Assembly: GCA_022510565.1 (NCBI GenBank)
Contig: JAFLTE010000006.1
Span: 1-64,000, forward strand
Direction of reading: 5' to 3'
Length of the DNA stretch: 64,000 nt
Origin: Lachnospiraceae bacterium
GTDB taxonomy: Bacteria; Bacillota; Clostridia; Lachnospirales; Lachnospiraceae
Part shown: positions 2,845 through 64,000 of the stretch, piece after piece
How the letters are laid out: every line of letters begins with the position of its first letter
Numbering within the stretch: position 1 is the stretch's first letter
Notes under the pieces: generated by a model
What the model was told of the DNA's origin: nothing
The model's database searches: none
What the model saw: the letters and a program-made list of their open reading frames with translations, nothing else
Made by a program: the position numbers and the translations under genes

Positions 2845-5220
2845 ATGAACGACAAAGTATTACGCGTTTTAGAATATAACAAAATCATCGACAAGCTTAC
2901 CGACAAAGCCACCTCGGAACAGGGCAGAAAACTGACTTCCTCCCTTGTTCCCATGACAGACTTGGATGACATAGCCAAAGCGCAGACAGAAACTTCGGAT
3001 GCGTTGGGACGTTTGTTTAGTAAAGGCTCTACGTCTTTTGGCGGCAACAAGGATTTAGGTATGTGCATTAAATCCCTTGAGGTGGGCAGCGCTCTCTCGA
3101 TTGCCGAGTTATTGCGCATTGCGGCTTTCTTGGAAAATGTCAACCGCATCAAAGCCTATGGGCGAAGGGACAGAGAAGATACTCCTGCCGATTCTCTGGA
3201 TGAGTATTTCGATGTGTTGGAACCTCTCACGCCCCTTGCCAACGAGATTCGCAGATGCATTCTGTCGGAGGAAGAGATTGCGGACGATGCCAGTCCCACG
3301 CTCAAGCATATCCGACGCAGCATGTCGATTACCAACGACAAGATTCACTCACAGCTGACATCCATGATTAACGGCTCCTATCGTACCTATCTTCAGGACG
3401 CCGTTGTCACGATGCGGAATAACCGCTATTGTATTCCGGTCAAATCCGAATATAAGGGGCAGGTGTCCGGTATGGTGCACGACCAGTCCTCCACCGGCTC
3501 CACCTTTTTCATAGAGCCTGCGGCGGTTGTGAGTCTGAATAATGAATTAAAAGAACTGGAACTCAAGGAGCAGGAAGAAATCGGAGTGATTCTCGCCGAC
3601 TTAAGTGCGCAGGCGGGTGCATACACGGAAGTTCTGACAGCGAATCAGCAATCCATGACGGCGCTTGATTTTATTTTCGCCAAAGCATCTCTGGCTATGG
3701 AGCAGAATGCCACCATGCCGATTTTCAACACAGAGCATCGGATTCGGATTCGTCAGGGCAGGCATCCTCTTTTGGATAAAAAGACGGTGGTTCCCATCGA
3801 CATTCAGCTGGGCGAGAATTTCGACTTGTTGATTATTACCGGACCCAACACGGGCGGAAAGACGGTCTCCTTAAAAACAGTGGGACTTCTCACTTTGATG
3901 GGGCAGGCGGGTCTTCATATTCCGGCGCTTGACCGCTCCGAGTTATCTGTTTTTCAGGAAGTATACGCGGATATCGGGGATGAACAGAGTATTGAGCAGA
4001 GTCTCAGTACCTTCTCCTCCCATATGACAAATATTGTATCCATCTTGCAGACAGCGGATGCCGATTCTCTCTGTCTGTTCGATGAGCTGGGTGCAGGTAC
4101 CGACCCGACGGAAGGTGCCGCTCTCGCTATTTCAGTACTTGATTATCTGCATAATCGGGGAATTCGGACGATGGCGACTACCCATTACAGCGAGTTGAAG
4201 GTTTATGCCCTGTCTACTGACTTTGTGGAAAATGCCAGCTGTGAGTTCAGTGTGGAAACGCTGCGCCCGACTTACCGTCTCTTGATTGGCATTCCCGGCA
4301 AGAGTAACGCCTTCGCGATTTCCTCCAAGCTGGGACTTCCGGAGTATATTATTGAGGACGCCAAGCGACATATCACGGCGGATAAGGAGAGTTTCGAGGA
4401 CCTGCTGGCGGACCTGGAAAACAGTCGTCTCACAATCGAGAAAGAGCGGGCGGAGATTAATGCCTACAAGGAAGAAATCAAAACCTTAAAACAGCAGTTG
4501 GAAACCAAGCAGGAGAAGATTGAGCAGTCCAAGGCGCGCATTCTGCGCGAGGCCAACGAAGAGGCACGGGAGATTCTGCAGAATGCCAAGGATGTTGCGG
4601 ATGAGACAATCCGTAAATTCCAGAAAGCGGGCGACGGCACTTCCATCAAGGAACTGGAAAAATCGCGTCAGAAAGTGCGTGACAAGATTTCCGAGAAAAA
4701 TGACAAACTGGCTCTGAAAAACAGTCAGCCTACCCATAAGATATTGAAACCCAATCAAATCAAACTGGGGGACAGTGTCAAAATCATTTCCATGGGATTA
4801 AAAGGCACCGTCAATTCCCTGCCGGATAAGAACGGCAAGCTTTTCGTACAGTGCGGTATTATTCGATCACAAGTATCTTTGGACGACCTCGTTCTGACCG
4901 AGGAGGAGACGATTAACACCGGTAAGATGCAGCGCTCCTCTTCCGGCAAACTGAAAATGTCTAAATCTTACTCGGTTTCCACCGAGATTAATCTTCTGGG
5001 AAGGACAGTGGATGAGGCTCTTTCGGAGCTGGATAAATATTTGGACGACGCTTATCTGGCGCATCTTCCGAATGTCCGTATTGTCCACGGCAAGGGTACG
5101 GGCGCTCTCAGAAGCGCGGTGCACAACTATCTGCGTAAGAACAGAATTGTGAAAAGTTACCGACTTGGTGAATTCGGAGAGGGAGATGCCGGAGTCACAA
5201 TTGCGGAGTTTAAGGACTAG
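2845..5220 (+). CDS. mutS2: MutS2 ATPase with Smr domain (recombination / ribosome rescue)
   Basis: 791 residues, full length. An N-terminal clamp/coiled-coil region is followed by the ATPase core with Walker A GPNTGGKT (~334-341), Walker B CLFDELGAGTDP and the TTHYSELK motif, a long charged coiled coil (~510-630), a KOW-like segment and the C-terminal Smr domain with HGKGTG. The Smr LDLRG motif reads INLLG here. MutS2 proteins restrain recombination and in Bacillus also split collided ribosomes. A two-component system follows after 16 bases and is probably cotranscribed. ATG start with AAAGGA upstream. Confidence 0.95.
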   Translation: MNDKVLRVLEYNKIIDKLTDKATSEQGRKLTSSLVPMTDLDDIAKAQTETSDALGRLFSKGSTSFGGNKDLGMCIKSLEVGSALSIAELLRIAAFLENVNRIKAYGRRDREDTPADSLDEYFDVLEPLTPLANEIRRCILSEEEIADDASPTLKHIRRSMSITNDKIHSQLTSMINGSYRTYLQDAVVTMRNNRYCIPVKSEYKGQVSGMVHDQSSTGSTFFIEPAAVVSLNNELKELELKEQEEIGVILADLSAQAGAYTEVLTANQQSMTALDFIFAKASLAMEQNATMPIFNTEHRIRIRQGRHPLLDKKTVVPIDIQLGENFDLLIITGPNTGGKTVSLKTVGLLTLMGQAGLHIPALDRSELSVFQEVYADIGDEQSIEQSLSTFSSHMTNIVSILQTADADSLCLFDELGAGTDPTEGAALAISVLDYLHNRGIRTMATTHYSELKVYALSTDFVENASCEFSVETLRPTYRLLIGIPGKSNAFAISSKLGLPEYIIEDAKRHITADKESFEDLLADLENSRLTIEKERAEINAYKEEIKTLKQQLETKQEKIEQSKARILREANEEAREILQNAKDVADETIRKFQKAGDGTSIKELEKSRQKVRDKISEKNDKLALKNSQPTHKILKPNQIKLGDSVKIISMGLKGTVNSLPDKNGKLFVQCGIIRSQVSLDDLVLTEEETINTGKMQRSSSGKLKMSKSYSVSTEINLLGRTVDEALSELDKYLDDAYLAHLPNVRIVHGKGTGALRSAVHNYLRKNRIVKSYRLGEFGEGDAGVTIAEFKD

Positions 5221-53942: not shown

Positions 53943-54580
53943 ATGAAACAACTTTATTTATTATACCTGCTTTGCATTGCATGTCTGATTGGCGGCTGCG
54001 CAAACAGGTCTGCCGATACGAATAATGTCATTACGGAATCGGATGGCGGTACCGCTTTATGCGCGATTCCCATTCCCTTTGAAAAAATACGTTAGTTATA
54101 AGTATGACGGACGAGAACAACGGTTATCTGCTATATTGCAGTACTCCGGCTGCGGGAATAATGATGAAATATCTGTATGTCACGGAAGACCGCTGGACTA
54201 CCTACGATGTAAAGGACATCAGTTCTCTCATAGACGGATATCCGACCAGCCTCTCTGCACTGTCGCCGGAACATGTTTACATAGGAACGCAGATGCGCAG
54301 TAACGGATATCTGTTTGAGACAACCGACGGAGGCGAGCATTGGAGTTCCGTTTCGGTAGACGAGGGTTATTACCGATATGGTTATGTGCCGCTTTTGGAT
54401 GAGAATAACGGCGTCATGTATGTATTCTTGGAATATGAGACAGATGACGGCAGCCACTACAACTACAACCTATACCAATCCGACATTAATGCAACGGCAT
54501 GGGAAAAGATAGGCAGCTATTCATTGGGTGCAGACGGGTCTTCGCTTCAGGAAGGCCGGTTTTTTATTTTTTCTTTATAA
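53943..54580 (+). pseudogene. broken lipoprotein gene with beta-propeller-like repeat
   Basis: First frame 53943-54095 codes 50 residues with a lipoprotein signal (lipobox IGGC at Cys19) and stops at TAG. The rest follows in another frame (54104-54580, 159 residues: TDENNGYLLYC, FETTDGGEHWSSV), resembling Ycf48/sialidase-like propeller repeats (GG.HW). Homologous proteins are several hundred residues, so both the frameshift and the early end point to decay. Confidence 0.6.
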
Positions 54581-54599
54581 ACACTTCATAATTCTATAA

Positions 54600-54628
54600 T
54601 TGATTCATTGTTATAGTTGATGTATAAC
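54600..54628 (+). promoter_or_regulatory. promoter of hsp20
   Basis: TTGATT (54600-54605), 17-base spacer, TATAAC (54623-54628), followed by a ~85-base leader. No CIRCE element was seen. Confidence 0.6.
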
Positions 54629-54648
54629 ATATATAAACAAAGAAACAC

Positions 54649-54692
54649 CTATCAGCTATGAATCGGATTTCTCAATTCGGTCATACTGATAG
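54649..54692 (+). promoter_or_regulatory. long hairpin in the hsp20 leader
   Basis: CTATCAG (54649-54655) pairs with CTGATAG (54686-54692), extended by TATGA/TCATA with one bulge. The loop holds TTTCT, which could pair weakly (with G-U pairs) with the AGGAG ribosome site at 54706-54710. A possible RNA thermometer. Confidence 0.4.
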
Positions 54693-54718
54693 CATAGAAT
54701 AGAAAAGGAGTGATTATT

Positions 54719-55171
54719 ATGTTAAGACCTGCATTATTTAACAACCGTACCTACAGACCCATGTTTTTCGAGGATTCCTTCGATGAGATGTTTGACAATG
54801 CTTTCAAGAATTTCTGGGGCAACAATGAGCTTGCCACTTTCGATGCGTTTAAGACCGACGTCATCGATCAGGGTGACAACTATCTGCTGCAAGCGGAGCT
54901 GCCCGGTTTCGACAAGTCCGACATCAACATCGATTTGAAAGACAATCTGCTTACTATCTCGGCTTCTCATAAGGAAGAGAAGGATGAGGAAGATAAGAAT
55001 AAGTACATCCGCAAGGAGCGTTACTACAGTTCTTATTCCAGAAGTTTCCGCGTAAACGATGTGGATGCCGGGGATATTGACGCTTCTTACAATAACGGCA
55101 TCCTGGAAGTCAAATTCCCGAAGAAAGAACTTGCCGCCAAAGAAGAAGTGAAGAAAATCGAAGTGAAGTAA
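54719..55171 (+). CDS. hsp20: Hsp20/alpha-crystallin small heat-shock protein
   Basis: 150 residues from ATG 54719 (AAAAGGAG 8 bases upstream). Alpha-crystallin domain (~45-140: DNYLLQAELPGFDKSDINIDL, NNGILEVKFPK) and a short charged tail. ATP-independent chaperone. Single gene with own promoter and terminator. Confidence 0.95.
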   Translation: MLRPALFNNRTYRPMFFEDSFDEMFDNAFKNFWGNNELATFDAFKTDVIDQGDNYLLQAELPGFDKSDINIDLKDNLLTISASHKEEKDEEDKNKYIRKERYYSSYSRSFRVNDVDAGDIDASYNNGILEVKFPKKELAAKEEVKKIEVK

Positions 55172-55179
55172 TCTTAATG

Positions 55180-55208
55180 AAAATCCCGCTGGAATCCGGC
55201 GGGATTTT
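55180..55208 (+). terminator. hsp20 terminator
   Basis: AAAATCCCGC - TGGAATCCG - GCGGGATTTT followed by TGTTTT; 8 bases past the hsp20 stop. Confidence 0.88.
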
Positions 55209-55243
55209 TGTTTTACCAATATATATAATATTTATTCCTAACA

Positions 55244-57037
55244 TTACTTGATTGTCTGAATCAGTTCCAAGAACTCTTCCTTATATTCATCTGACAATTC
55301 AATAGATTTCAGCACTTTCTCCACATGATTTACCGAAGCATTCTCCGGATATTCACTGTGGGATGCCAGAAGACCGAACTCTGCTACTGCTGCCGCAAAG
55401 ACATAATCATCTGACGGCGTACTCGTATAACTCTCATATCCTACCGGATACTGCAGCAGGTTACTGCTATCCTCAGCCGGTTTCTTATAGCGGATGCTGA
55501 TAGTCAGCCACTCTTCCTCCTGAATGTCCTGCCACTCGTCGAGATCGAGCGTGCCTAACTGTTTACCCAGTGCTTCCTTATATTGTTTGCTGTATTTTAA
55601 CTCGTCAACTTCTCCTTTAGTCATTCCGTTAATCGGCTGTTTTAATACAATCTCATAAAGTGCCGTCACACTGTGTCCCGCTCCGATTTCACCTGCATCT
55701 TTTGTATCATCGTTGAAGTCCTCTTTAGCAAGTGCTCTGTTTTCATAGCCAAGAAGTCGATAGCTTTCCACAACCGCCGGATTGAACTCTACCTGAAATT
55801 TCACGTCCTTGCATATGGTAAGTAAGGTCGCTGACATCTCTTCCACCAAAACCTTGTTGGCTTCCCGCAGACTGTCTATATACGCATAGTTGCCGTTGCC
55901 CTTATCAGCCAGTGTTTCCATCTTGTTGTCTTTAATGTTTCCGGTACCGAATCCAAGTACCGACAGGAAGATTCCGGATTCTTTCTTCTCGGAAATCAGT
56001 TCTTCCAACTCTTCCTCACTGGTCAGTCCTATGTTCAGGTCACCGTCAGTTGCAAGGATAATACGGTTATTTCCGCCTTCAATAAAGTTTTCCTCTGCAA
56101 GCTTATAAGCCGTCTCTATTCCTTTGCTTCCATATGTTCCGCCGCCGGCTTTCAATGAATTCAGTGCTTTCTTAATCTTCTTGGTCTCATCACCGCGTAC
56201 ACCGTCCAGCACGATTCTGTCATCCCCCGCATAAGTCACAATAGATACTCTGTCCTTCTTAGTCAGGTTTTCAGCCAACAAGCTGAAAGATTCCTGAAGA
56301 AGCGGTAACTTATCATCGGAATACATGGAACCTGACACATCCAACAGAAAAACCAGATTTGAGGGTGGTGCCTGAGAATAATCGATATCCTCGGTTTTTA
56401 ACCCAATCATAAGAAGTTCTGCATCATCATTCCACGGGCAAGTACTAATCTGGGTTGTAACGCCGAAAGGCTCCATACCCTTCGGTGCATTGTAATCATA
56501 GGAGAAATAATTAATCATCTCCTCAATTCTCGCCGCTCCCTGAGGCAGCTCATCCAGCTCGTAACCACTGTTAATCAATCTGCGCAAATTGCTGTAGGAA
56601 GCCGTATCCACATCCGCCGCGAAAGTAGACAACGGCGCTTTCATAACAGGCGAAAATCCTTGCTCCTCCCACTGGCTGTACTCCTCTGTGTTGGGATAAT
56701 CAGGCTCCCAATCATACTCATAGCAGGATTCTGTATAGCCGTTCATAATGTCCTGCCTTGCGCTGTCACTGTAATCCACATCGGCTTTTGATGTAGCACC
56801 GTCATAGACATAGCCGTCCGATGCGGGAGCTTCGGCAGCCTCGTCATATGCATAACCTGAATCCTGCGTTGCCGCAGCACCTGTTGTCGGCGCATAATTT
56901 TCAGACGCTCCATCTGCCGCCGCCGTAGAGCCGCCCGATTCACTTGCGGTGTCCAAACTGCCTCCGCAGCCTGTCATCAGCATGGCCCCCGCCATAACCA
57001 ACGACAAAACTTTTGCACAATAGTTTTTCTTTTTCAT
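55244..57037 (-). CDS. von Willebrand A domain lipoprotein (YfbK-like)
   Basis: 597 residues. Lipoprotein signal with lipobox MTGC (Cys24), a low-complexity Ala/Ser/Tyr linker (~30-110), a conserved N-terminal vWA-associated domain (STFAADVDTASYSNLRRLI), the vWA domain (~225-405) with MIDAS DVSGSM and a C-terminal DUF3520-like part. Anchored on the outer face of the membrane. Preceded by a GCAACC-N16-GGTATT promoter, so most likely a target of the ECF sigma factor at 60.6 kb. Confidence 0.9.
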   Translation of the reverse strand: MKKKNYCAKVLSLVMAGAMLMTGCGGSLDTASESGGSTAAADGASENYAPTTGAAATQDSGYAYDEAAEAPASDGYVYDGATSKADVDYSDSARQDIMNGYTESCYEYDWEPDYPNTEEYSQWEEQGFSPVMKAPLSTFAADVDTASYSNLRRLINSGYELDELPQGAARIEEMINYFSYDYNAPKGMEPFGVTTQISTCPWNDDAELLMIGLKTEDIDYSQAPPSNLVFLLDVSGSMYSDDKLPLLQESFSLLAENLTKKDRVSIVTYAGDDRIVLDGVRGDETKKIKKALNSLKAGGGTYGSKGIETAYKLAEENFIEGGNNRIILATDGDLNIGLTSEEELEELISEKKESGIFLSVLGFGTGNIKDNKMETLADKGNGNYAYIDSLREANKVLVEEMSATLLTICKDVKFQVEFNPAVVESYRLLGYENRALAKEDFNDDTKDAGEIGAGHSVTALYEIVLKQPINGMTKGEVDELKYSKQYKEALGKQLGTLDLDEWQDIQEEEWLTISIRYKKPAEDSSNLLQYPVGYESYTSTPSDDYVFAAAVAEFGLLASHSEYPENASVNHVEKVLKSIELSDEYKEEFLELIQTIK

Positions 57038-57075
57038 ACCCTTTCCTCCTTTGGGAGCAATATGCTCCTACTATG

Positions 57076-57103
57076 AATACCCCCAATAAGAGGAAAAGGT
57101 TGC
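57076..57103 (-). promoter_or_regulatory. ECF promoter of the vWA lipoprotein gene
   Basis: Minus strand GCAACC (57103-57098), exactly 16 bases, GGTATT (57081-57076). Identical boxes and spacer to the element at 62556-62583. Both are preceded by an AT-rich tract and share TTTTGCAACCTTTT. Confidence 0.75.
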
Positions 57104-57147
57104 AAAATTTGTAAAAAATTTTCAGCTTTTATGAATTTTTATACGAA

Positions 57148-59775
57148 TCAGAATCTGCCCGTATCCAGATAGATGACACCTAACCAGTAAAATCCATATA
57201 AATCTACGTCATCACCCATAATTGCATAGACAGCATCCGTAATCTCGTAAAATCTCTCATCGTCCAAATCGTAATCCGTACGCAAAATGGCTTGTCCCGA
57301 TTCCTGCAAGTCCTTGGCGAGCTGCTCTGCCGCCTCTTCTGCCGGGAAGTACCGATCCGTGATATGGTAATACTCACAGCTTTCGCTTTCACCTTTGTAA
57401 TTATCCAGAAGCTTATCCGTCATATATGTCTTATCTTCCACCAGAATCCTTTCTCCGGCAAAATTCGGAAGATTCAACAAAGCATTCGGAATATACTCCA
57501 TATCATTATTCGTGGCATCTACAATCTGCCAGTCGCCGTCCAGCTTAACTTTATTCCATGCGTGAGCCAATCCGCCGTCCAAGATGCCTGTAACCACGAT
57601 GCTTTCCAAGCCTGCAGCATCCGACAACAGCTTGAATGCTGCCGCATAACCGCTGCATACACATTTGCCGTTAATCAATGCACCGTATGCGGTAAAGGAA
57701 TCGTTGAAGCTATCATCAACATATAAGAAATTATTTTCTTCCGCATTTGCAAGCGCATCCTCGTCATACGAGATTGTGTCACACAGATATTGATTAATAG
57801 CCAGTTCAATCTCTTCGTCTGTCATACCGGGCTTCACAATCTGCGAGATAACCTCTTCCAGCTTTTCCTGAATCTCTTTCTGCTTTCTCGCCTGTGTCTT
57901 ACTGTCATCATCATAAGCTACACGAAGCAGCATTCTCTTACGATTAAGCTGATAGCCACGAAGTCCCAGAATCATCGGATTCTGATAAAACGCCTCCATA
58001 AGAACATCTTCCACTAAAGACGCATCTTTCGCTTCCGGAAATTCTGATAAATCAATTACCTCAACTCCCGCCAGCATATTGGCAGCCAGATATTCTCCGA
58101 GCGCACTGTTGGCAAAAATCTCTATATCTTCCATCTGGCGGACTTCCTGCTGCGGCTGCTCACTCACTTCCTCTCTCGCATCCCGCAGTACACCAAAGGC
58201 CTTACCTCCCGCTTTTTTTCGCAGCTGTGCCTCTCTGTCCTCCAAGAACTTCATGTCCGCCTGTAAGTTCGCTTCATCATAATCTAATAATTCCATCGAA
58301 TAGGAAAAAGGTGTGCCTTCTACGACATACGGTACTGTCAGGCAGTTCTCCGTTTTACCTTCCACGAAGTTTCCTTCATCATCTACATACCACACCCTTT
58401 TAGGTGCGACGCTTGCTTCCTCGGTATGGTAGTCAATCAGTTTCTGGTTTGTGATTCCGTCACACATGGTCACATAATCATATGCAGGAAATTGTTCTAC
58501 GGATTCATACTCCCTGGTAAAACCGTTCTCTTTCTCCGTGTTGGTTGCCACGGAGCTAGGCAAATTCGGTGCCATCTCGCTGAAGAAAAACGTGTTGCTA
58601 ATCATGGAAGTTCCGTCCTGACCGACTGCAATCACGCAGACCGCTCTGTCATTTTCCTCCGCCCATTGCCACTTCACTACCGTATTGGGTTCATACTCAT
58701 CTATATAATAATTGTATGTAGTTTCGTTTTTCCAATCATCCTCGCTTACACGATAGATGTCAAAATCTTTGTTTGCGTACGCAAAATTACTGAATTCAAC
58801 CGCTTCTGTAGTCCATGTTGTGTCCTCGGTCGCGCCCAAAGGATACATTAAACTTTCATATCCTTTCTCCGGATTCCACTCTACTCTACAGATAATATAT
58901 TCTGCAGCACCCTCAACGGATGTCCACTGGAACATCGGTCTTCCGTCATCTAAGATTGAATAGTCGAGTACCGGAGTATCTTCCAATTCTGCCGCTAACG
59001 TAATAATGCTTACCTGCGGCTCCTCCAACTCCTCACCGGTCTTCTCGTCATAATAACAGGCAAGATACAATGTTCCCACATTACCCCATGTCATGCCGCT
59101 GCCAAAATCAAAAAGTACATTCTGTGAATGGTCGTAACGGTTTACCGTCTCTGTGTCCAGTCCCAATGTCGCAATACGACAAGGTCCCCAGTTAGGCGGC
59201 GCAATCGAGAGCGTCCCTGTAGCCTCATCCCAGTCATAAGAAGACCCAACAACCTCTCCCGTCAAATCGGGATTCTGGAAGATTTTACAGAAATATCTCC
59301 AGTTATCAAGATCTTCCATCGCATAAGGGTCGTATTCCATATGTACCTTGATTGCATCACTTCTGCCAAGCTCCTCTATTGCATCGCCATAACTATAGCC
59401 GTACAGCGGAGTGTCCTTGTATTTATCTTTGGCAGCCGATGCCAAATGAACAGATGTCACATAACTTGCATCCGCCAGCAAATCGTAATCATCCTGCTCC
59501 TGCAGTGCTGGCTCCACGCCCGCATTGTCATCAGAGGTACTGCTTACAGGCTGGTTTGTCTCCTGCCCTGCATCCACCATAGTATCACTGATTTCCTCCT
59601 GCGCTGTGTGGAAATGTCCGTACAACGCACCACTGAGTATTGCTACAGCAAGTACAACTGCCGTGATGGCATAGGGACGACGTTTCTTTCTCTTCGCACG
59701 ATGCAGCTCTTTCTGTTCCTCTGTCAGTTCTTTTTTCTCAATCTCAATTCGTATATAATCATTCTCAAATTTCAT
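57148..59775 (-). CDS. membrane-anchored transglutaminase-like protein
   Basis: 875 residues. Cytoplasmic basic N-terminus, one TM (~36-54), extracellular fibronectin-like or other beta-rich regions (~90-400) and a C-terminal transglutaminase-like fold. The full catalytic triad is present: Cys in CVCSGYA (~707), His in LAHAW (~738) and Asp in IVDATNND (~753). It may crosslink or cleave wall proteins. ATGA overlap with the preceding gene, so it belongs to the sigma operon. Confidence 0.85.
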   Translation of the reverse strand: MKFENDYIRIEIEKKELTEEQKELHRAKRKKRRPYAITAVVLAVAILSGALYGHFHTAQEEISDTMVDAGQETNQPVSSTSDDNAGVEPALQEQDDYDLLADASYVTSVHLASAAKDKYKDTPLYGYSYGDAIEELGRSDAIKVHMEYDPYAMEDLDNWRYFCKIFQNPDLTGEVVGSSYDWDEATGTLSIAPPNWGPCRIATLGLDTETVNRYDHSQNVLFDFGSGMTWGNVGTLYLACYYDEKTGEELEEPQVSIITLAAELEDTPVLDYSILDDGRPMFQWTSVEGAAEYIICRVEWNPEKGYESLMYPLGATEDTTWTTEAVEFSNFAYANKDFDIYRVSEDDWKNETTYNYYIDEYEPNTVVKWQWAEENDRAVCVIAVGQDGTSMISNTFFFSEMAPNLPSSVATNTEKENGFTREYESVEQFPAYDYVTMCDGITNQKLIDYHTEEASVAPKRVWYVDDEGNFVEGKTENCLTVPYVVEGTPFSYSMELLDYDEANLQADMKFLEDREAQLRKKAGGKAFGVLRDAREEVSEQPQQEVRQMEDIEIFANSALGEYLAANMLAGVEVIDLSEFPEAKDASLVEDVLMEAFYQNPMILGLRGYQLNRKRMLLRVAYDDDSKTQARKQKEIQEKLEEVISQIVKPGMTDEEIELAINQYLCDTISYDEDALANAEENNFLYVDDSFNDSFTAYGALINGKCVCSGYAAAFKLLSDAAGLESIVVTGILDGGLAHAWNKVKLDGDWQIVDATNNDMEYIPNALLNLPNFAGERILVEDKTYMTDKLLDNYKGESESCEYYHITDRYFPAEEAAEQLAKDLQESGQAILRTDYDLDDERFYEITDAVYAIMGDDVDLYGFYWLGVIYLDTGRF

Positions 59776-60542
59776 ATAATTTCTTCCTCCATGAGCAGTT
59801 CATATGCCTTGTCTGCAAACTCTTCGCGACTGATAACCTCATCTGTCAGCACTGTGTTGATTACGTACATCTTGCTGTCCACCTGCACATAGGCTATCCA
59901 GGCCCCATCAGAATCCTTCCCCACATACAACTCTGTATCCTGCACCGCAATGCACTCTGTATCAGGATTGCCATAAAAAGCGGGAATCTCCTTCACTTCT
60001 TCAACCCATAAATCACTATTGCCGTAGAGGCTGTCTATATAACTCTTGTCCTCACTTTGAACTTCGGCATCTGTATACCCGTCGCCTTTCGATGCGGCAT
60101 CCCAATTGACATTATTTTCTGCTGTCGCTGCAGCACCCGCTGTCATGTCATATTTACTTCCGCCTTTTTCGATAGGTTCCTCTGCTGCGCCTTCCATCTC
60201 CTCCGCTATATCGGCGCTCCCAAACTGCAAGCCCATATCATTTGCCTCAGTCGCTCCCGATGCCATATCCATCGGACTGTTCGATTTAGCTGTACCACTG
60301 CCGCTGCCAAATCTCATCATCGAGACGCTAAACAGCATCACACAGAATACTGCAGCCGCTGCTATGGGAAACGCCCACTTATATACTTTGCTATAGGAAG
60401 GCTTCGGCTGCGCTGTAACGTTTCTCTGCATTCCCTCTCTGTTAAGCCGCTGTTCCTCTTCCCACATGGCTTCCTTGGTCTTACGAATCAACTCGGCAGG
60501 AGCATGTATTTGTGAAGTTTCTTTCTTATATTGTTCCATCAT
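59772..60542 (-). CDS. putative anti-sigma factor, single TM
   Basis: 256 residues. Cytoplasmic N-terminus (~55 residues; IHAPAELIRKTKEAMWEE) without a zinc-finger, one TM (~55-73) and an extracellular part with low-complexity Gly/Ala/Glu and a C-terminal domain. Located 18 bases after the ECF sigma gene and overlapping the next gene by 4 bases. The topology and place fit an anti-sigma factor; sequence alone does not prove it. Confidence 0.72.
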   Translation of the reverse strand: MMEQYKKETSQIHAPAELIRKTKEAMWEEEQRLNREGMQRNVTAQPKPSYSKVYKWAFPIAAAAVFCVMLFSVSMMRFGSGSGTAKSNSPMDMASGATEANDMGLQFGSADIAEEMEGAAEEPIEKGGSKYDMTAGAAATAENNVNWDAASKGDGYTDAEVQSEDKSYIDSLYGNSDLWVEEVKEIPAFYGNPDTECIAVQDTELYVGKDSDGAWIAYVQVDSKMYVINTVLTDEVISREEFADKAYELLMEEEII

Positions 60543-60560
60543 AATTAGGATTTCCTTCTG

Positions 60561-61055
60561 CTATAATTCTTCCCCTATCAGTTCCTTAAGCATCTCTCGG
60601 GCCCGATGCATCTGCGATTTCACAGTGGTTTCTTTCTGGTCTGTCAACTGGGCAATCTCCGCCACCGTCCGTCCTTCGAAATAATACAGATGAATGACGA
60701 GGCGATATTTCGGCGGAAGCTTCTGCACTGCCGCCCGCACCGGATGCTCCTCCGGCAGTTCATATCCACCGCTCTCATCCGCCATGCGCTCCGGCTCTTC
60801 TATAAAATCCACATTTTTGTTCCAGTATTGCTCGAAATGCTTCTTGGCACAATTGATTGTCACTCGTATTAACCATGCTTTAACATGTTCCCAAGATTCC
60901 AACTCATGTACATGACTTACCAACCGCACGAATACTTCCTGGAATAAATCATCTGCGTCTGTTGTATTTTTTACCTGCGACAGCGCCAGCCGGTACACCA
61001 TGTCAGCGTACCTGTCAATCGCCGATTCTGCCGTTATCTGTTCCTCTTTAGGCAT
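60561..61055 (-). CDS. ECF sigma factor
   Basis: 164 residues from ATG 61055 with AGGGGA upstream. Region 2 (~10-75: YADMVYRLALSQVKNTTDADDLFQEVFVRLVSH) and region 4 (~105-160: PPKYRLVIHLYYFEGRTVAEIAQLTDQKETTVKSQMHRAR). First gene of sigma/anti-sigma/transglutaminase-like operon. No GCAACC box precedes it; instead a 13-bp inverted repeat flanks a TATAAT, so it does not appear to be directly autoregulated by the cluster motif. Confidence 0.92.
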   Translation of the reverse strand: MPKEEQITAESAIDRYADMVYRLALSQVKNTTDADDLFQEVFVRLVSHVHELESWEHVKAWLIRVTINCAKKHFEQYWNKNVDFIEEPERMADESGGYELPEEHPVRAAVQKLPPKYRLVIHLYYFEGRTVAEIAQLTDQKETTVKSQMHRAREMLKELIGEEL

Positions 61056-61058
61056 ACA

Positions 61059-61113
61059 AAAATCCCCTATCAAATAATGCACATTTATTTCATTATACAC
61101 GATAGGGGATTTT
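61059..61113 (-). promoter_or_regulatory. inverted repeat enclosing the promoter and ribosome site of the ECF sigma gene
   Basis: AAAATCCCCTATC (61059-61071) and GATAGGGGATTTT (61101-61113) are perfect 13-bp inverted repeats, 29 bases apart. On the minus strand a promoter TGTTCA-N17-TATAAT (61120-61092) overlaps the upstream arm, and the downstream arm includes the AGGGGA ribosome site. A transcript reading through from the lipoprotein genes could fold and hide the ribosome site; a transcript from the inner promoter (start ~61085) would lack the first arm. Confidence 0.7.
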
Positions 61114-61151
61114 ATGAACAGAATAATTATAATGCCGTATCCACTATGGCG

Positions 61152-62459
61152 TTAATATTCCGGTTTGGTGGCGTTCTCAATCTCCATGGATTGTACTTTG
61201 CCATCCTTGACAACAATCGTATATTTATCCAGTACACTCTTGTCAGGGTCTGCTATTTCATAATAAGTATAGCCGCTGTCAGAAGTTTCCACTTCACAGT
61301 TAAAACCGTCTACCGCTTTCTTCACGGCGCTTTCCGCATCACCAACCTTAATGTTGCCGGGGAATACCAAATCAAATTCCGGTCCGTTGACGCTCGACTT
61401 CATGGACAGCGCAAAACAGTTCTCAACCGTGGTTGCATAGTCTGCGTAGTTCTTCACCATCGTACGAAGTGTCTGGTTGTTATATCGCAGATTAACCCAT
61501 CCGTTTCTGCCTGCTGCCACTACACTGTCGGAATTGGATGTATCAATAGTAAATCCATTCTCCAACAGAACCGATACAGGACAGGGAAGTGAATATACAA
61601 CACCTTCCAGCTCGGCAGTGTAAGCATAGAAATCGCTGCCTAAGGATTTCGGGGCTTTATACTCTTTTACCAGATCGGGAACTTCTTCATTAACGGAATT
61701 ATCGGCTCCCTCCAATGCTACCATGTTCTCAATCTCAATCTCCAGCAGTGCATCCTCTTCCTTGTATACATACAGATTAATTTCACTGTAAGAATCAATC
61801 TCGTAGGTCATCTTATAATACATATCACCTTCATAATCATCACTGGGGTCTCCGTATGCAGCTATGATATCATCAGTGTTTGATACGCCCCACTGAATGC
61901 CACCCGGCAGAATAATCTCCCAATCACAGTCTTTTAACTGAAATTTATCCAGTGTGATGCTCGCGACCATACTCTCTGAAAACGGTACAGTGTTCATGGA
62001 CAGATTCGCAAGCCTCGTGGATACTCTGAAACCGTCTTTCTTCCATGTCGCACCAAATGTATACTGATTGGAGGACAAAGTGTCTGTTGCATCTTCTTGG
62101 AATTCCCAACCAAGTGCCTCAAAATCGGAATACCACATAGGGAACTGATATACAATGCCATCGATAGATACCTGAAAATCGTACAAATCGTCTGACAGCT
62201 CGCTCGGTGCCGATGCTGCCTTCTTGGGTTCTGCGACTTCTTCCTCCTCTGGCTCTTCTTCCTCTTCTTCCTGCTCTTCTTCTACCTCAGGTTCTTCCTC
62301 AATCTCTTCCTCAGGCTCTTCCTCTTCAAATTCTTCCGCCAGCGCCTCTCTCGCTTCATCCGCTGCAGATGTGTCTCCATTATCTCCCGATGCTCCGCAC
62401 GCTGCCATCGATAATGTGCAGCTGATCGCCAGCAATACTGCCAGTGTCTTTTTCTTCAT
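61152..62459 (-). CDS. lipoprotein with acidic linker and two repeat modules (paralogue 1)
   Basis: 435 residues. Lipoprotein signal with lipobox AAC (Cys21), a striking Glu-rich linker (~35-75), then two related modules: LYDFQVSIDGIVYQFPM...ILPGGIQWG (~90-245) and FYAYTAELEGVVYSLPC...FPGNIKVG (~270-430). Homologous to the following paralogue along the whole length except the linker. Has the cluster ECF promoter (62556-62583). Family and function not recognised. Confidence 0.82.
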   Translation of the reverse strand: MKKKTLAVLLAISCTLSMAACGASGDNGDTSAADEAREALAEEFEEEEPEEEIEEEPEVEEEQEEEEEEPEEEEVAEPKKAASAPSELSDDLYDFQVSIDGIVYQFPMWYSDFEALGWEFQEDATDTLSSNQYTFGATWKKDGFRVSTRLANLSMNTVPFSESMVASITLDKFQLKDCDWEIILPGGIQWGVSNTDDIIAAYGDPSDDYEGDMYYKMTYEIDSYSEINLYVYKEEDALLEIEIENMVALEGADNSVNEEVPDLVKEYKAPKSLGSDFYAYTAELEGVVYSLPCPVSVLLENGFTIDTSNSDSVVAAGRNGWVNLRYNNQTLRTMVKNYADYATTVENCFALSMKSSVNGPEFDLVFPGNIKVGDAESAVKKAVDGFNCEVETSDSGYTYYEIADPDKSVLDKYTIVVKDGKVQSMEIENATKPEY

Positions 62460-62473
62460 TTTCTCCTCCGTTC

Positions 62474-62491
62474 CAAAGCGATTCCGCTTTG
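62474..62491 (-). promoter_or_regulatory. leader hairpin of lipoprotein paralogue 1
   Basis: CAAAGCG - GAAT - CGCTTTG, 7-bp stem ending 6 bases before the GGAGGAG ribosome site. A 6-bp version is found at the same place in paralogue 2 (63851-63869). Confidence 0.5.
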
Positions 62492-62555
62492 ATAATCATT
62501 TTTGTTCAAGCAATCCCCATTGCTAAAAAGGCTTTATACCGACCCTTTCAAAGAT

Positions 62556-62583
62556 AATACCTTTGAGGGATATAAAAGGTTGC
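62556..62583 (-). promoter_or_regulatory. ECF promoter of lipoprotein paralogue 1
   Basis: Minus strand GCAACC (62583-62578), exactly 16 bases, GGTATT (62561-62556), about 97 bases upstream of the start codon. Matches the element at 57076-57103. Confidence 0.75.
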
Positions 62584-62609
62584 AAAAATTTTTAAAAAAA
62601 TCTGTGGGC

Positions 62610-63836
62610 TTAGTATTCCGGATTTTCCCTATAATTAATATCCATATATATTATTTTTTTGTTAGATACGATAAAGGTATAAATCTCGGGCGAAGTATTC
62701 TTGGCATCCGTCATCCAGTAATAAGTATAATCACCATCTTTTTCCTTGAAATACTCCACTCCCTTTAATACCTGCTTCAATGAATCTTCCGAATCGCCAA
62801 GTTTAATATTGCCGGGGAACACGATATCAACATCTGTTTTCAGTCCCCATGTCTCCAGCGATGTGACAGAACAATTCTCTATCGTTGTTGCGTAATCTGC
62901 ATAGTTCTTCACTTTCACAGACAATATCCGGTCGCCGTAACAAAAAACGACCGAACCGGAGGCACCTGTTGCCAGCTCCATGTCAGATTTAGAGGTGACT
63001 ATGGTAAACCCATTCTCCACCAGAACGGATACCGGACATGGCAGAGCATACACGACACCTTCCAATTGTACATTGTACTCATGGAGGTCATCGCTTAAAG
63101 ACTCCGGTGCCTGATATGCCTTCACAATATCGGGAACCTCTTCACTGACAGAATTGTCAAGACCCTCCAATTCCACCCTGTTGGCAATCTCAATTTCTTC
63201 CAATACACCATCTTCTTTGGATACAATCAGCGTAACGTACTGACGATATGGAGCGAGGTCATAGCTCAAATGATAAGAGAAATCGCTCTCACTCTCGAAA
63301 GATGGATTGCCGTACGCCGCTATAATATCGTCATAACTTGACACTTCCCACTGAATCCCTCCCGGCAGTATAATATCCCAGTCACAATCTTTTAAATATA
63401 ACCTTCTTAACTCAATACTACATACAATGCTCTCCGAATAGGCAATTGTATTGATAGATGGATTAAACATGTACGTATAGATATCAATCCCATCCTTTCT
63501 CCATTTCTCTCGGGTATGTTCATCGGCACTCAATGTACCTGTCAACCCGCCCTTAAACTGCCAACCCAACGCCTCCATATCAGAATACCACATCGGAATC
63601 TGATATACCGTGCCATTGATGGCAACCTGGAAATCATATAGATTGTCCGATAAGTCTGCCGGCACCTCCGCAGGCTCTTTAAGCGCTTTTTTCTCGGCAT
63701 TTTGTCCGGTCCCGCCGGACTCTGTTGAAATTTTCTCCTCAGATGCCGATGTCTCATCGCCGCCTGTTGCTCCGCATGCTGCTATTGATAATGTGCAACT
63801 GATCGCCAGCAATACTGCCAGTGTCTTTTTCTTCAT
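62610..63836 (-). CDS. lipoprotein with two repeat modules (paralogue 2)
   Basis: 408 residues from ATG 63836 (GGAGG upstream; the open frame extends into the preceding gene's end). The signal sequence MKKKTLAVLLAISCTLS is nearly identical to paralogue 1, lipobox AAC (Cys21), then a shorter linker without the Glu tract and the same two modules (LYDFQVAINGTVYQIPM...ILPGGIQW; LHEYNVQLEGVVYALPC...FPGNIKLG). A tandem gene duplication. No ECF box upstream inside the window; may be cotranscribed with the partial membrane protein before it. Confidence 0.82.
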   Translation of the reverse strand: MKKKTLAVLLAISCTLSIAACGATGGDETSASEEKISTESGGTGQNAEKKALKEPAEVPADLSDNLYDFQVAINGTVYQIPMWYSDMEALGWQFKGGLTGTLSADEHTREKWRKDGIDIYTYMFNPSINTIAYSESIVCSIELRRLYLKDCDWDIILPGGIQWEVSSYDDIIAAYGNPSFESESDFSYHLSYDLAPYRQYVTLIVSKEDGVLEEIEIANRVELEGLDNSVSEEVPDIVKAYQAPESLSDDLHEYNVQLEGVVYALPCPVSVLVENGFTIVTSKSDMELATGASGSVVFCYGDRILSVKVKNYADYATTIENCSVTSLETWGLKTDVDIVFPGNIKLGDSEDSLKQVLKGVEYFKEKDGDYTYYWMTDAKNTSPEIYTFIVSNKKIIYMDINYRENPEY

Positions 63837-63850
63837 TTTTTCCTCCGTTC

Positions 63851-63869
63851 CAAAGCATTTTCCGCTTTG
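63851..63869 (-). promoter_or_regulatory. leader hairpin of lipoprotein paralogue 2
   Basis: CAAAGC - GGAAAAT - GCTTTG, same position relative to the GGAGG ribosome site as in paralogue 1, with a loop that differs. Confidence 0.45.
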
Positions 63870-63873
63870 ATAA

Positions 63874-64000
63874 TTATTTATCTCTTTTTTCCACCATCTT
63901 ATCATACTGCCAATACATCTTCTGTACTTCGTTTTCCAATATGTAGTAATGCCGTACGTACGGAATGAGTAAAATCAGCAGCGCGATTGCCAGCAATCCG
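63874..64000 (-). CDS. C-terminal part of a membrane protein (window edge)
   Basis: An open frame from the window edge to TAA at 63874: 41 residues with a hydrophobic helix (GLLAIALLILLIP), then the polar tail YVRHYYILENEVQK ending KRDK. It stops 37 bases before paralogue 2 and is likely its operon partner. Family cannot be determined. Confidence 0.6.
   Translation of the reverse strand, partial: GLLAIALLILLIPYVRHYYILENEVQKMYWQYDKMVEKRDK

Follow-up and report, generated by a model that had tools for sequence, protein, structure and literature searches.

Two copies of the sequence GCAACC-N16-GGTATT, located on the minus strand of a 64,000-nucleotide stretch of Lachnospiraceae DNA (hereafter, the window), are in all likelihood the -35 and -10 elements recognized by the stress-type ECF sigma factor whose gene lies between them. 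In the proposed promoter, TGCAACYTTTT forms the -35 element and AAAGGTATT the -10 element, with a transcript start expected some 7 bases beyond it. What the sequences show directly is the motif with its constant spacing, its association with the sigma factor throughout the genus, and its position ahead of the sigma operon and of lipoprotein genes; comparison of relatives makes both sites very probably promoters of this nearby sigma. As defined by sequence comparison, unusually well in this instance, the circuit is of an ordinary, well-known kind in a new place; its one unusual element is the leader of the sigma gene itself.

Promoters of clostridial ECF sigmas are poorly defined; a passage of a start-site study of C. 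difficile describes the consensus of its three ECF sigmas as still to be identified (PMC7438776). Our literature search found nothing on an ECF sigma factor with GCAACC in clostridia, nor on ECF sigma autoregulation in Lachnospiraceae. Here, 41 genomes of one gut genus allow the sigma to be studied alongside its promoter, its targets and naturally occurring variants of its own control. The features of the window are collected in Table 1.

Table 1. Features of the sigma cluster in the window, with the basis of each assignment
Feature	Position	Strand	Basis or remark
VWA lipoprotein	55244..57037	-	Pfam vWF_A, VWA, YfbK_C; lipobox by sequence
Probable ECF promoter of the VWA lipoprotein gene, GCAACCTTTT-N12-GGTATT	57076..57103	-	predicted start ~57069-57067
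Transglutaminase-like protein	57148..59775	-	Pfam Transglut_core; N-terminal hydrophobic segment read from sequence
Putative anti-sigma factor	59772..60542	-	position and alignment, predicted model; no Pfam family
ECF sigma factor gene, 164 aa (sigma2 13-77, sigma4 106-156)	60561..61055	-	Pfam Sigma70_r2 and Sigma70_r4_2
Predicted hairpin AATCCCCTATC...GATAGGGGATT, overlapping the ribosome-binding site of the sigma gene	61061..61111	-	fold and alignment
LP1 lipoprotein	61152..62459	-	no Pfam family; lipobox by sequence
Probable ECF promoter of LP1	62556..62583	-	predicted start ~62549-62547
LP2, LP1 paralogue (53% identical)	62610..63836	-	no ECF site seen ahead

The motif and the genes behind it

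The first-pass annotation had reported two identical sites flanking an ECF sigma operon, each ahead of a lipoprotein gene, and had considered them unlikely to arise by chance. Recounting bore this out: the window contains exactly two such sites against an expected 0.01, and none of 100 dinucleotide-preserving shuffles of the window had two. The TTTTGCAACCTTTT context is common to both, and the two downstream genes, encoding the VWA lipoprotein and LP1, both carry a lipobox as read from sequence, their ATG codons lying 38 and 96 bases, respectively, from GGTATT. The flanking arrangement requires one refinement, in that the sigma gene does lie between the sites but neither is directly ahead of it; the upstream site serves LP1, and a hairpin separates LP1 from the sigma gene.

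The motif was extended to GCAACYTTTY-N12-GGTATT, and a logo was built from 59 non-redundant sites chosen by this exact pattern. Positions that the pattern does not impose were also conserved, namely T at -1, immediately 5' of GCAAC (95%), A at position 19 (81%), and the run T, A, R, A at 33-36 (86%, 78%, 93% and 80%); an A/T-rich stretch was seen upstream of the sites. The run at 33-36 places a start-like TARA at the expected transcript start, predicted for the window at ~57069 and ~62549, close to the 57070 and 62550 named in the first-pass annotation. The picture was similar in a relaxed set comprising 44 sites, itself still selected at 12 or more matching bases of 16. The spacer is shorter by one base in loci L212 and L232. 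As to the earlier proposal that the form is that of an ECF promoter, the AAC in the -35 element stood (by construction in the exact sites; A 100%, A 91% and C 100% in the relaxed ones), but the -10 element did not conform, being GGTATT in place of the usual CGT.

In the genome of the window (G000, a 3.2-Mb draft that is 89.6% complete), the exact extended pattern occurs six times and the reversed pattern not at all. All six sites are intergenic and ahead of genes, 28-125 bases from the next start codon. Besides the VWA lipoprotein and LP1, the genes concerned encode a DUF4349 lipoprotein (contig C45), an HSP70-family protein (C49), another lipoprotein (C13) and a small membrane protein (C59). 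It is to be noted that the HSP70-family gene has its exact site 125 bases upstream (L186:2197). Allowing three mismatches added only three places, equal to the three found in the reversed control. The pattern GCAACNTTT-N9-16-GTA matched the genome 18 times, with promoter spacing in eight, of which six were intergenic with GGTATT; the remaining two (L033, L037) are located within genes and were set aside.

Across the 98 genomes compared (see below), 79 exact sites were found, and 75 distinct ones were followed in loci of the genus, the next gene being identified by BLAST against the proteins of the window's genome, or, for the SIMPL type, through a sequence motif, with a Pfam match in one scanned member. 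This gene encoded a VWA protein in 28 cases, a DUF4349-type lipoprotein in 19, LP1 in 10, the sigma factor in seven, a SIMPL lipoprotein in five and others in six. A lipobox pattern was recognized after 60 of the sites, and three more (two of the DUF4349 type and one VWA with unread bases) precede members of lipoprotein families in which the pattern is missing; thus, 63 of the 75 sites lie ahead of lipoprotein genes. This bias puts the little-known families DUF4349, SIMPL, YfbK_C and LP1 under a common regulatory context; in the literature searched, nothing was found joining DUF4349 to a sigma factor.

Association with the sigma factor among relatives

The 98 genomes comprised 60 of the window's genus, its own included, and 38 from other genera; a sigma orthologue, defined by more than 250 bits and at least 70% identity, was present in 41 of them, and the exact motif in 40. 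The motif was found in 39 of the 41 genomes with the orthologue but in only one of the 57 without it (Fisher p ~1e-23, kinship not corrected); within the genus, whose genomes are not independent samples, the corresponding figures were 39/41 and 1/19 (p 4e-12, again with kinship not corrected). The two misses, G014 and G049, carry sites matching 15/16 and 14/16 bases in the cluster itself (L238 and L247), whereas the lone motif without an orthologue belongs to G052, a genome only 66% complete, where it lies ahead of a DUF4349-type lipoprotein gene (L190). The exact motif was absent from all 38 genomes of other genera, and the reversed control pattern matched in two of the 98 genomes. The idea that this is the regulon motif of the nearby sigma is therefore supported by both the genome scan and the related genomes, and the motif has indeed been kept, exactly or nearly so, in the 41 genomes that have the orthologue.

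To place the sites within the clusters, a search with the sigma factor gave 80 loci, from which we took the 51 that reach at least 64% identity (L204-L254, mostly with Lachnospiraceae titles). Since many of the titled loci are genomes of the same 98-genome set, they support the placement but are not fresh evidence for the association. A site was scored when at least 13 of 16 informative bases matched within 200 bp upstream of a callable gene. By this measure, 24 of 27 clusters had a site ahead of the VWA lipoprotein gene, 11 of 12 had one ahead of LP1, and 24 of 47 had one ahead of the sigma gene, while none preceded the putative anti-sigma gene (0/49) or the transglutaminase gene (0/12); the reversed-sequence control gave zero for all genes except LP1 (1/12). 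The missing VWA and LP1 sites are accounted for individually: in L236 and L246 the VWA site falls inside an over-long gene call, in L232 the spacer is the shortened one, and in L226 an over-long call of LP1 covers a site at 4472. The gene map recovered the sigma gene in 35 of 41 loci.

With a looser pattern, we classified 47 clusters, all but L216, L217, L227 and L247, for which no class could be assigned: the site was within 150 bp of the sigma gene in 25, further upstream in 14 (13 at 1.4-1.5 kb and one at 0.3 kb), and in neither place in eight. The first-pass annotation had regarded loss of the motif from clusters that retain the sigma gene as evidence against the regulon, and these eight clusters, without a qualifying site at or further upstream of the sigma gene, count to that extent against it; for one of them (L214, genome G010), an exact site is present in another part of the genome.

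We also inspected 29 more distant loci (L255-L283), in which the sigma is 36-46% identical. In three, a GCAACC-type site ends 41-63 bases before the stretch that matches the sigma, with a PWM score of 22.8-24.9, compared with a maximum of 16.4 in the reversed L204-L254 sequences; a high-scoring site was absent from the other 26. The three (L256:2601, L258:5931 and L261:5910) show a GCAACC(A/G)TT-type element and GGGTATT just 5' of the sigma gene, and their sigmas, 43-46% identical, come from two Oscillospiraceae records and one Candidatus Parachristensenella. Since such distant relatives have similar sites, the promoter preference of the sigma may be ancient.

The motif might instead belong to a different ECF sigma in these genomes, such as either of the neighbours that adjoin the cluster in relatives. 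The opportunity exists, in that the window's genome has 26 sigma70-family matches (20 over the cut-off, non-ECF sigmas included), and relatives often have two more ECF genes next to the cluster. In a search for these neighbours among 61 genomes, of which 37 belong to the genus, the divergent neighbour had as its best G000 match, among the matches listed, a protein only 48% identical, and no match of at least 64% among those listed for the motif-bearing G000, G003, G020, G023 and G031; the other neighbour had 66-68% matches in G006, G008 and G035, all of which lack the motif. Judged by the matches listed, neither neighbouring ECF gene tracks the motif. Together with the many sites directly 5' of the gene of the sigma studied here, this makes a different ECF reader improbable. 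Still less credence is due to an operator for a dimeric regulator, which would draw on the partial inverted repeat ACCTTT-N10-AAAGGT, with the A-rich bases in front of GGT mirroring the T tract. The outer GCA and ATT are conserved and yet asymmetric, weaker sites ahead of the sigma gene (for example L233 and L241) lack the T and A tracts but retain GCAACC and GGTATT, the start-like element follows at a fixed distance, and the spacer is one base shorter in L212 and L232; such an operator is thus very improbable, and recognition by the sigma encoded in the cluster is the reading we follow below.

The leader of the sigma gene

The window's lineage seems to drive its sigma gene from a promoter of the housekeeping type, placed on the loop side of a hairpin that resembles a terminator. 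The hairpin consists of 13 pairs, its 3' arm containing the Shine-Dalgarno sequence AGGGG, 8 bases before the sigma ATG, and a TATAAT is found on the loop side (61097-61092). The folding energy is -22.2 kcal/mol (z -3.9), with no shuffle as good. The stem is followed by a TTTTT tail; the loop is longer than our terminator scan allows, and the hairpin was not listed by it. Its inverted repeat occurs once in the genome, and Rfam gave nothing over thresholds within 54500-64000. The hairpin is kept in 11 aligned clusters, in which 93% of cells pair, compared with 39-51% when the alignment is slid. Four pairs changed on both sides (by inspection, three in L238 and one in L223), a number reached by 5 of 500 shuffles; the covariation score was reached by 37 of 500, and the pair types were no more varied than in shuffles (451/500 as high).

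A scan for two-hexamer promoters found 17 sigma70-like sites versus 14.3 in shuffles, i.e., no excess, and the case for TATAAT thus comes from its conservation. It is present in 3 of the 25 clusters whose ECF site is no more than 150 bp from the sigma gene but in 15 of the 22 others (p ~1e-4, uncorrected), and in L212, L213 and L225 the ECF site directly abuts the remaining 3' arm of the hairpin. That relatives with a direct ECF site are mostly without TATAAT suggests a promoter exchange, in which lineages would have swapped the housekeeping promoter and hairpin for direct self-activation, in either direction.

How the device might work is offered tentatively. Transcripts started in the loop would have no 5' arm and would be translated, whereas read-through from the sigma-driven LP1 would fold, hide the ribosome-binding site and be silenced; exchange of such an insulator for self-activation between lineages would yield the same regulon with and without a feedback loop. 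It is also conceivable, although doubtful, that the inverted repeat is the operator of a repressor sitting over the promoter and not an RNA hairpin at all, and the near invariance of both arms in 10 of the 11 clusters would suit this explanation. In L238, however, both sides of the stem carry changes and the pairing persists, and the Shine-Dalgarno sequence is part of the 3' arm, after which most rows have a run of T; these features accord better with an RNA hairpin.

The sigma factor, its cluster and the proposed circuit

A section of PMC8103513 defines ECF sigmas as having only sigma2 and sigma4, joined by a linker of fewer than 50 residues, and states that later classifications limit the definition to sigma2 and sigma4. 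The sigma of the window has just these two domains in its 164 residues, and it matches TIGR02937 with 83.6 bits (cut-off 42.9). The NCBIfam models for SigV, SigM and SigW of B. subtilis also match, with scores of 89.3, 76.6 and 75.5 bits that are all below the curated cut-offs (190, 147.95 and 209, respectively); membership in these families was therefore rejected. Promoters of these B. subtilis sigmas have AAC and a T tract in the -35 element, and differ from the window motif in bases of both the -35 and the -10. No anti-sigma family in common with SigV, SigM or SigW was found.

The protein encoded next to the sigma is called a putative anti-sigma factor by position and layout only. It has a conserved N-terminal segment, IHAPADLI..TK.A..EE (helix), one hydrophobic segment, a variable linker and, in the predicted model, a confident small C-terminal alpha/beta domain, the mean pLDDT of the whole model being only 67. 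A relative was found in 49 of the 51 loci. No anti-sigma family of Pfam matched in the 29 members searched (eight families matched one member each), and the structure search produced no credible match (best E 0.046). LP1 is predicted to consist of two similar domains (~92-245 and ~277-428), the likeness being judged from the order of strands and helices; a PCNA-type clamp was rejected for it, as the best E of 6e-4 came with a TM-score of 0.09 and an rmsd of 23.

In the circuit that we propose, the adjacent membrane protein would act as the anti-sigma factor, and an envelope signal would release the sigma. Once freed, the sigma would activate a limited number of surface lipoproteins, namely VWA/YfbK, LP1 and DUF4349, joined by SIMPL in certain relatives; its own gene would be a further target in many of them. 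For the lineage of the window, the loop promoter would supply basal sigma and the hairpin would limit read-through from LP1, so that feedback would be weakened or indirect.

The system resembles ECF (group IV) sigmas in possessing sigma2 and sigma4 only, AAC in the -35 and a 16-base spacer, and those with an adjacent anti-sigma and an autoregulated promoter in that a membrane protein gene adjoins the sigma gene and many relatives have a site at the sigma gene itself; unlike them, it has the GGTATT in the -10, and the window's lineage has no direct site at the sigma gene. The sigma E envelope-stress regulon of S. coelicolor offers a close parallel in the excerpted account (PMC6767563), where GCAACC-type -35 elements occur at several targets, several targets are lipoproteins, the sigE operon includes a lipoprotein gene, and the sigE promoter is not a sigma E target, as appears to hold for the window's sigma gene. 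In that same account the -10 is mostly CGTC-like, more targets are listed, and sigE is under a two-component system, of which none was seen in the window's cluster.

Some further observations concern gene content. LP2 is in tandem with LP1, between an upstream 336-bp gene and the promoter of LP1, and a second LP1-like gene was not seen in the mapped LP1-bearing clusters of relatives. Some relatives have up to three ECF sigma genes per cluster (L147:2901-3410 and L147:9515-10078), whereas the window has one. Upstream of the cluster and outside the window, two small adjacent genes (L144:11424-11957, contig C92 of G000) resemble a toxin-antitoxin pair of the Phd/YefM-RelE type, as read from their sequences.
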